A DNA stretch of 32,330 nt. It comes from Actinomycetota bacterium. Lineage in GTDB: Bacteria > Actinomycetota > Thermoleophilia > Solirubrobacterales > 70-9. This document shows, one piece after another, positions 1 to 4,467 of the stretch. A program made the position numbers and the translations under genes. Numbering within the stretch: position 1 is the stretch's first letter; each line of letters starts with the position of its first letter. The notes beneath the pieces were generated by a model that worked only from the letters and a program-made list of their open reading frames with translations, made no database searches and had not been told where the DNA came from. The DNA lies in NCBI GenBank assembly GCA_016870325.1, contig VGBV01000013.1, positions 1-32,330 on the forward strand, in the 5' to 3' direction.

Positions 1-568
1 CTCGGCGGGCGCCGTCAGGGTCGCCACCGTCGCCTCCCCCCCGATCTCCGACCTGGCGCGCCTGACGAACACCCAGTCGGACAACTTCCTGGCCGAGATG
101 CTGCTCAAGGACGTCGCCGGCGCCTTCGGCGACCGCGGCAGCACCGCGGTCGGCGTCAAGCTCGTGCGCCGCTTCGCCTCCGAGCGCGGTGCCTCGTTCC
201 GCGGCGAGAACGGCTCCGGCCTCAGCCGCGTCGACCGCGCCTCGCCCGCCTCGGTCGGCTCGCTGCTGCGCTCGATGCTCGAAGACGACACCGACGCCGA
301 GAAGGAGCTCCGCGAAGCCTTCATACAGTCGCTCGCCGTCGCCGCCCGCAGCGGCACCCTCGCCGACCGCATGCGCGGTTCGGCCGCCGCCGGCCGCTGC
401 GCGGCGAAGACGGGGACGCTGACCGGCGTCAGCGCCCTTTCCGGCTACTGCTTCCGCCCCGGCGGCGGCGCCACCGTCTTCTCGATCCTCAACAACCGCG
501 TCGACACCGACCGTGCCCGCCGCGCCCAGGACCGCATGGCCGCCCTGATCGCCCGCTACCGCCCGTAG
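1..568 (+). CDS. dacB: D-alanyl-D-alanine carboxypeptidase/endopeptidase, PBP4 type (C-terminal part)
   Basis: The 5' part lies outside the window; the reading frame is open from base 2. The visible 188 residues carry two of the three penicillin-binding motifs of peptidase family S13: an SxN motif in SDNFLAEMLLK and a KTG motif in AAKTGTLTGVSALSG. Between them is the GSGLSR stretch typical of PBP4/DacB proteins. The Ser-x-x-Lys nucleophile motif must lie upstream of the window. Family members act outside the membrane on peptidoglycan, removing terminal D-Ala or cutting cross-links. The gene ends 30 bp before a 38-bp palindrome and is convergent with the next gene. Family assignment is firm; carboxypeptidase versus endopeptidase activity cannot be told from the sequence. 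Confidence 0.9.
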   Translation, partial: SAGAVRVATVASPPISDLARLTNTQSDNFLAEMLLKDVAGAFGDRGSTAVGVKLVRRFASERGASFRGENGSGLSRVDRASPASVGSLLRSMLEDDTDAEKELREAFIQSLAVAARSGTLADRMRGSAAAGRCAAKTGTLTGVSALSGYCFRPGGGATVFSILNNRVDTDRARRAQDRMAALIARYRP

Positions 569-598: not shown

Positions 599-636
599 TG
601 AACGTCTGACCACACCGGGGTGTGGTCAACCGTTCA
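599..636. repeat. 38-bp palindrome, copy 1
   Basis: Outer arms TGAACG/CGTTCA and inner arms TGACCACACC/GGTGTGGTCA (607-616 and 619-628) surround a 2-nt centre. It matches a second copy at 1538-1575 in direct orientation at 32 of 38 positions. It covers the stop codon of the DUF559 gene (634-636) and lies between two convergent genes. No T-run follows, so it is not a typical intrinsic terminator, although it could still fold in RNA. Confidence 0.9.
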
Positions 637-1557
637 ATCGCCTCTTTCGGCCAGTCGCCTCGCCACCGCCGTCAGCGTTTGCACGACCCGGCGGGGCTCG
701 CGCACGACCTGCGAGTGCGTGAAGCGAAGCGTCGTCAGGCCCGTCGCGGCGTGCGTCTGGTCGCGGACGCGGTCCCGGGCCTGCTGTGAGGCGGTGCGGT
801 GATAACGGAGGCCGTCGGTCTCGACGACCAAGCCGAGCGCGCGCCAGAAGAAGTCCACCCTGAACCCGTCCAGCACGACCTGCGTCTCCGGCCGCGGCAG
901 ACCCGCCCGCCGCGCGAGCGGCAGGAAGCGACGCTCCAGCTCGGAGTCCGTGAGCGCGAACGTCTGGCGGTCGAGGACCGACCGCAGGGCTGCCGTCCCA
1001 CGCCTGCCCCGATGGGCATGGAGCCCGTCCCGGATCGCATCGGGGTCGAGCAGGTCGACCCGGTCCGCTGCGTTGACGGCCGCCTCGAGCCACCTCCGCT
1101 CCAGCACCGAGGCCAGGTCGATCAAGGTCATCAGCGGCCCAGTGACCGGGATCCCATCGTGAAGGGCGAAGCCCCCCGGGTCCAACAAGCGGCGGTGCAC
1201 GGCGACCCCCGCCGGGCGCGGGTTGCGCGAGGCCGCCACGGTCACCTCGAGCGGCGCCGGGGCGGCGGTCAGTCCCCAGAGCTCGCCGGCGCTTCGGTGG
1301 CTGAGGACCGCGTCCTCCCCGCAGGCGAGCACCGCCGCCATCAGCTCACCCCTGCGTGTGACCCCAGGTCGACCCACGGCGTAGACCCCGATCCGCAGCG
1401 GATGCAGGCGCCGCAGGCGGATTCGGTGCTCGATCGCGCGCCGCGAGAGCCCGCGGTCCAGCAGCTGGCGCCGGGAGACGACCCCATGCTGCCTCGCCGC
1501 CAGGGTCCAGATCCCGCGCCCGGGCAAGTCCGGCGATTGAACGTCCGGCCACACCAT
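634..1557 (-). CDS. AbiEi-like winged-helix plus DUF559 (Vsr-like nuclease fold) protein
   Basis: A 307-residue protein. Residues about 15-65 look like the N-terminal domain of AbiEi-type antitoxin proteins (AARQHGVVSRRQLLDRG, then a GVYAVG turn). Residues about 200-305 match the DUF559 pattern: SELERRF, then VDFFW with Asp235, then VVETDG with Glu246/Asp248, then a basic RDRVRDQ helix, which resembles a PD-(D/E)xK/Vsr-like core. Function is unknown; DNA binding by the N-terminal domain and a nuclease fold at the C-terminus are inferred from family. No toxin partner lies beside it. The ATG sits in the centre of one 38-bp palindrome and the stop codon lies in another, with no Shine-Dalgarno sequence visible. 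The gene starts 44 bp after ligA ends. Confidence 0.8.
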   Translation of the reverse strand: MVWPDVQSPDLPGRGIWTLAARQHGVVSRRQLLDRGLSRRAIEHRIRLRRLHPLRIGVYAVGRPGVTRRGELMAAVLACGEDAVLSHRSAGELWGLTAAPAPLEVTVAASRNPRPAGVAVHRRLLDPGGFALHDGIPVTGPLMTLIDLASVLERRWLEAAVNAADRVDLLDPDAIRDGLHAHRGRRGTAALRSVLDRQTFALTDSELERRFLPLARRAGLPRPETQVVLDGFRVDFFWRALGLVVETDGLRYHRTASQQARDRVRDQTHAATGLTTLRFTHSQVVREPRRVVQTLTAVARRLAERGD

Positions 1558-1575
1558 CGTGTGGTCAAGCGTTCA
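1538..1575. repeat. 38-bp palindrome, copy 2 (over the start codon)
   Basis: Same architecture as the copy at 599-636: TGAACG/CGTTCA outer arms and CCACAC/GTGTGG inner arms. It lies between the ligA stop and the DUF559 gene, whose ATG (1555-1557, minus strand) falls in the central loop. AbiEi antitoxins are known to bind inverted repeats and repress their own promoters, so an operator role is a reasonable inference. A shared end of a mobile unit is the alternative. Confidence 0.9.
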
Positions 1576-1601
1576 GGGGGCGGGGTTCTCCCCCCGGTCG
1601 G

Positions 1602-4467
<2,866 letters not shown>

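Follow-up and report, generated by a model that had tools for sequence, protein, structure and literature searches.

The window analysed here, a stretch of 32,330 nucleotides, belongs to a source genome (G000) of 2.5 Mb in 247 contigs. It contains a gene with a palindrome at either end, lying between two host genes. The features of this locus are as follows:

634–1557, minus strand: AbiEi/DUF559 fusion gene, 307 aa (from the ORF, Pfam, alignment and a structure model)
1538–1575, minus strand: start palindrome with the ATG (1557–1555) central; operator-like, covering a −10-like CTT and the start codon
599–636, minus strand: second palindrome copy, including the stop codon (636–634)
1586–1595, minus strand: promoter-like GGGGGGAGAA element, with GGGGG at −38 to −34 from the ATG; conserved in 45 relatives
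1567–1569, minus strand: −10-like CTT, −12 to −10 from the ATG; TT 93% conserved
1360–1512, minus strand: AbiEi-like winged-helix DNA-binding part, residues 16–66
658–966, minus strand: nuclease domain, residues 198–300
1–568, plus strand: 3' part of dacB, flanking host gene, convergent
1602–3629, minus strand: ligA, flanking host gene

The initial annotation described a DUF559/AbiEi-like gene bounded by two 38-bp palindromes, and we confirmed the coordinates, the identity between the copies and the placement of the start and stop codons. The palindromes (599–636 and 1538–1575) are direct copies of one another, identical at 32 of 38 positions (84%), and an independent detection of direct repeats groups them as a family of two copies. 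The copy at 599–636 was also recovered as a near-perfect inverted repeat and was the only sequence in the 32-kb window to pass a strict palindrome score threshold; the one at 1538–1575 is less perfect. The 307-aa ORF on the minus strand has its stop codon in the former and its ATG at the centre of the latter. Its neighbours are the end of dacB and ligA. No AbiEii/DUF1814 toxin gene was present among the adjacent genes, in agreement with the earlier observation that the gene has no toxin partner.

In Pfam searches the protein matched DUF559 above the cut-off and AbiEi_4 and MTES_1575 slightly below theirs; NCBIfam and PHROGs profiles gave nothing informative. An AlphaFold2 model was confident (pLDDT 91.6). 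Its N-terminal half matches AbiEi (6y8q) and Rv2827c (1zel), and PADLOC AbiEi models match the same half. The C-terminal half matches the homing endonuclease I-Bth0305I (3r3p, TM 0.8 by target length) and NGO0050 (3hrl), and Vsr (1cw0) weakly. Residues E208, D235, E246 and H253 are invariant, and D248 is present in 64 of 65 sequences. The protein couples a DNA-binding half of the AbiEi kind with a nuclease of homing-endonuclease/Vsr-like fold, whose conserved acidic and histidine residues correspond to the EDxHD motif, though perhaps not at every residue.

Matches to this gene family occur in 45 of 50 genomes of the bacterial family, with up to 17 per genome; the hosts are uncultured soil and sediment actinobacteria. 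The source genome has 10 paralogs, compared to one in the sole congener examined, and plasmid records contained just two distant relatives. Each of the 10 paralogs begins in the loop or centre of its own palindrome, and these palindromes differ in sequence from paralog to paralog. Among 100 relatives, 49 had a start palindrome with a score of at least 11 and 21 had a stop palindrome, compared to 5 of 400 control windows; start palindromes this strong occur far above chance in the gene family. None of ten Gemmatimonadota relatives had one, so the start palindrome is not forced by the gene itself and is no trivial gene property. Palindrome similarity from gene to gene tracks protein similarity. 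Similarity of the inner arms tracks the winged helix (partial correlation 0.12) and that of the outer arms mainly the nuclease domain (0.24); these correlations are weak (0.1–0.24) and come from one test with a rough correction for relatedness.

We aligned 45 genes at their starts, chosen because their start codon is central in a palindrome. They share GGGGG at −38 to −34, then GA-rich bases, TT at −11/−10, the ATG at 0 and AAA at +10 to +12, and this layout is constant although the palindrome sequences differ. Judging from these letters, the layout looks like that of a promoter whose transcripts begin at the ATG or close to it, with an operator-like palindrome on top. One of the two roles first suggested for the palindromes was autoregulation by an operator. 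The overlap of the start palindrome with the promoter-like element and the start codon in the 45 relatives, together with the precedent of AbiEi relatives (PMC7319586), argues for it, and this support is positional. The other role was that of the ends of a cassette recognised by its own product. Some genes are indeed double-ended, but a stop-side copy matching the start palindrome is found at only about 11 of 66 genes (about one in six; 4 of 10 in G000), and a palindrome at both ends is not the general design.

Several further features of the family are recorded here. At three loci (L022, L027 and L058) the stop-codon palindromes are unlike the start palindrome yet similar to one another (CCTGCACCCTCAC...), and L083 and L106 form a further such pair. 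The DUF559 genes at L017, L019, L020 and L023 (three genera, four genomes) all end immediately before one common gene, apparently HMG-CoA-lyase-like, which makes this a shared insertion site. Apparently split or frame-shifted DUF559 genes are present in G033 (contig C206), G036 (C182), G038 (C31), G042 (C91 and C27) and G045 (C122), suggesting frequent decay.

The new finding is that gene-less copies of the gene's private palindrome are scattered through the same genome. The core CCACAC-N4-GTGTGG occurs at four sites in the whole 2.5-Mb genome, and the reversed-core control pattern at none. Two of the four are the window copies; the other two are solo sites without a DUF559-type gene. One lies between a dtd-like and a rimP-like gene, the other between convergent fmdB-like and LytR/CpsA/Psr genes (neighbours named by eye). 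We then searched whole genomes with palindrome patterns. When the ten start palindromes were joined and used as one query of a BLAST-type search, it had returned mainly start copies; such a search evaluates few candidates and is too strict for diverged 40-bp palindromes. The pattern TGACCACAC-N4-GTGTGGTCA was found in 9 of 50 genomes, with 32 copies in G033, 9 in G042 and 4 in G000, and its reversed control in none of the 50. One copy each in G000, G033, G039 and G042 sits at a DUF559 start, and the solo copies of G042 have the same asymmetric arm, GCGGGGTCA, as the copy at the G042 gene. The GCCTTTGTCACG family is the palindrome of the paralog on contig C56; G000 has five copies (start, stop and three solo) and the 49 other genomes none. 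The GCGTTCGCA family has 56 copies in G033, one of them at a DUF559 gene start, 15 in G038, 7 in G044 and 1 in G039, with none in the remaining 46 genomes. Solo copies thus number 2 and 3 for two families in G000, and about 30 and 55 for two families in G033. In a survey of the paralogs using 400-kb genome samples, solo copies were found for 6 of the 10 G000 start palindromes in the G000 sample (16% of the genome), while the best matches to these palindromes in samples of two other genomes stayed at noise level.

Where a cognate gene can be traced, the solo copies share the palindrome family of that gene, which lies in their own genome. The abundance of the dispersed extragenic palindromes is tied to the cognate gene, with two exceptions: in G038 no cognate gene for the solo copies was found (14 of 15 matches inspected), nor in G045 among the genes inspected. 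Inspection for cognate genes was partial in G036, G040 and G044. The initial annotation had counted palindromes scattered without relation to DUF559 genes against its readings; solo copies do lie dispersed, away from such genes, but the traceable ones belong to the family of a same-genome gene. We found no report of DUF559/AbiEi genes with dispersed palindromes in the open-access literature, which misses most subscription papers.

We also considered that solo copies are mere gene remnants. This is disfavoured because most have a different loop, CAGG instead of CATGG. A comparison based on GGGGG was not clean, as neighbouring G-rich modules made up 11 of its 38 matches. In G033 (L141–L172) many solo palindromes lie within composite repeats of at least 400 bp, with several different palindromes in mid-repeat; outer hairpins (loop CACAGCCTGCCCGG) stand in inverted orientation about 170 bp to each side. 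Many of the G033 copies may have been copied along with these larger repeats. Some DUF559 genes also have, at their 3' ends, hairpins with a CACAGCCTGCCCGG-type loop. L127 and L129 (G040 and G044) carry mosaic palindromes with unequal outer arms, as if recombined within the inner core.

Solo copies occupied 24 convergent, 16 tandem and 2 divergent gaps, against a background of 19, 61 and 20%, with genes called roughly and the background taken from G000 only. At three G000 solo sites, the orthologous positions of the congener lack the palindrome, and two clean alignments show a gap of roughly 55–65 bases; with one genome per species in the comparison set, insertion junctions lie beyond its resolution. 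The convergent ligA–dacB pair is kept in many relatives. Read by eye, most show a short gap free of both gene and palindrome; in G042, G040 and G023 the gap holds palindromes from other families or variant ones. The single-palindrome empty site that had been predicted for the dacB–ligA junction was not found in these relatives, all of other species. The fmdB-like/LytR-CpsA-Psr site has a TGACCACAC palindrome both in G000 (L004:1486–1530) and in G045 (L131:1488–1535), a different genus, with differing outer arms; recurrent insertion and concerted evolution would each account for this.

How did these palindromes come to be where they are? The reading that we favour, and to which we give an even chance, is a selfish (or once selfish) partnership, in which an autorepressed nuclease recognises a private palindrome and helps its copies to spread. 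It builds on what is observed: the architecture, the privacy of the palindromes, their genome-specific dispersal, their absence at orthologous sites and the conserved acidic and histidine residues. Recognition of the palindrome by the protein is likely; binding, autorepression and cleavage we infer. The gene product would bind its own palindrome, probably with the winged helix on its inner arms and the nuclease domain on its outer arms. Where a copy overlies the promoter and start codon, it would act as an operator that holds expression low. Other copies would be non-autonomous repeats, spread to gene ends of the same genome with the help of the cognate nuclease, whose cut or nick would lead to repair or copying. 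A second copy behind the gene would make the gene and its palindromes one unit. A difficulty for this reading is that a nuclease active on its own palindrome would break the host DNA wherever a solo copy lies; its activity must then be blocked or limited to special DNA forms. That the nuclease itself causes the dispersal is our leading inference, one that could fall either way with about equal probability.

By analogy with AbiEi, the start palindrome is most simply taken as an operator of that type, and the gene could be an autoregulator and nothing else. Solo copies would then have arisen through an unknown transposase or recombination, or form a regulon, and the nuclease would have another job, such as defence. 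The position of the start palindrome resembles the operator layout with which AbiEi represses itself (PMC7319586), and the PADLOC matches fit as well. Yet the operator reading alone leaves the genome-specific solo copies at gene ends unexplained. These copies shun the divergent gaps where promoters lie and favour convergent gene ends, where operators do not belong. Entire palindrome families come and go between related genomes, the nuclease residues are invariant, and a search confined to transposases of the Y1 type found no such genes in G000, G033 or G042. We consider this explanation unlikely, though it is the strongest of the rivals.

A homing element proper seems more doubtful still. Here the nuclease would cut empty alleles that bear the palindrome, and repair would copy the gene in so that it ends up between two palindromes; solo copies would be the natural targets. 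The window gene and about 10 others do have copies at both ends, the fold is that of an EDxHD homing endonuclease, and broken gene copies are common among relatives, as in the life cycles of homing genes. However, most genes lack a matching stop copy, the dacB–ligA sites of relatives mostly lack any palindrome, solo copies mostly differ in the loop, and the target remains intact next to the gene, which would expose the host itself to cleavage there. A role of the palindromes as hairpins that terminate transcription or stabilise RNA, with a secondary link to DUF559 genes, is very improbable. Solo copies do lie at gene ends, mainly convergent ones, but they have no consistent T-run (TTTT lies within 12 nt in 10 G033/G042 copies, where it is part of neighbouring modules), and the start-codon position, the private sequence of each gene and the genome-specific families are left unexplained.

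If the nuclease–palindrome partnership is real, these Thermoleophilia would harbour a new class of mobile DNA: private REP-like palindromes spread without a transposase by an AbiEi–EDxHD nuclease, whose gene is repressed via, and able to travel with, the same palindrome. We hold this fuller statement tentatively, at a little under an even chance. REP-type repeats have one known kind of dedicated enzyme, RAYT, and some REP classes have no assigned enzyme (PMC3733652). A second, unrelated enzyme with its own palindromes would mean that such partnerships arose more than once, and would give a role to the DUF559/AbiEi fusions, numerous in these bacteria and so far without explanation. The many naturally varied protein–palindrome pairs also lend themselves to the study of how DNA recognition evolves.

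Among known systems, DUF559/Vsr-like nucleases such as NGO0050 (3hrl) and Vsr (1cw0) share the nuclease fold, but the solved ones stand alone, without the AbiEi half of the fusion described here, and we know of no palindromes associated with NGO0050 or Vsr. The EDxHD homing endonuclease I-Bth0305I (3r3p) has the same catalytic-domain fold and binds, as a dimer, a target of nearly 60 bp (PMC3943268). Unlike in that system, there is no intron here, insertion leaves the target undisrupted and homing is putative. AbiEi and Rv2827c, which the N-terminal half resembles in sequence and structure (6y8q, 1zel), are autorepressors that bind a pair of 23-bp inverted repeats, spaced 3 bp apart, in their promoters (PMC7319586). 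Paired inverted repeats also lie at the promoter here, where binding is predicted. In contrast to AbiE type IV toxin–antitoxin systems, there is no toxin partner beside the gene, a nuclease is fused to it and the palindrome is dispersed in the genome.

REP–RAYT systems consist of private palindrome families between genes, tied to an enzyme gene that is edged by the same palindrome, and their abundance follows the gene (PMC2817692). Our system likewise has private dispersed palindromes and the gene of a DNA-acting enzyme with the same palindrome at its edge. The enzyme, however, is an AbiEi plus EDxHD/Vsr-like nuclease and not an HUH Y1 transposase, the start codon lies inside the palindrome, the arms are about 15–25 bp and copy number is usually low. 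Nor does it share the REP–RAYT trait of a repeat on both sides of the gene, since the start palindrome is common and a matching stop copy occurs in about one sixth of genes. Because a search for the transposase that defines REP–RAYT (Y1_Tnp, PF01797, the HUH Y1 tyrosine transposase) gave no match in the key genomes G000, G033 and G042, we do not regard the system as a member, but by analogy it may work like one.
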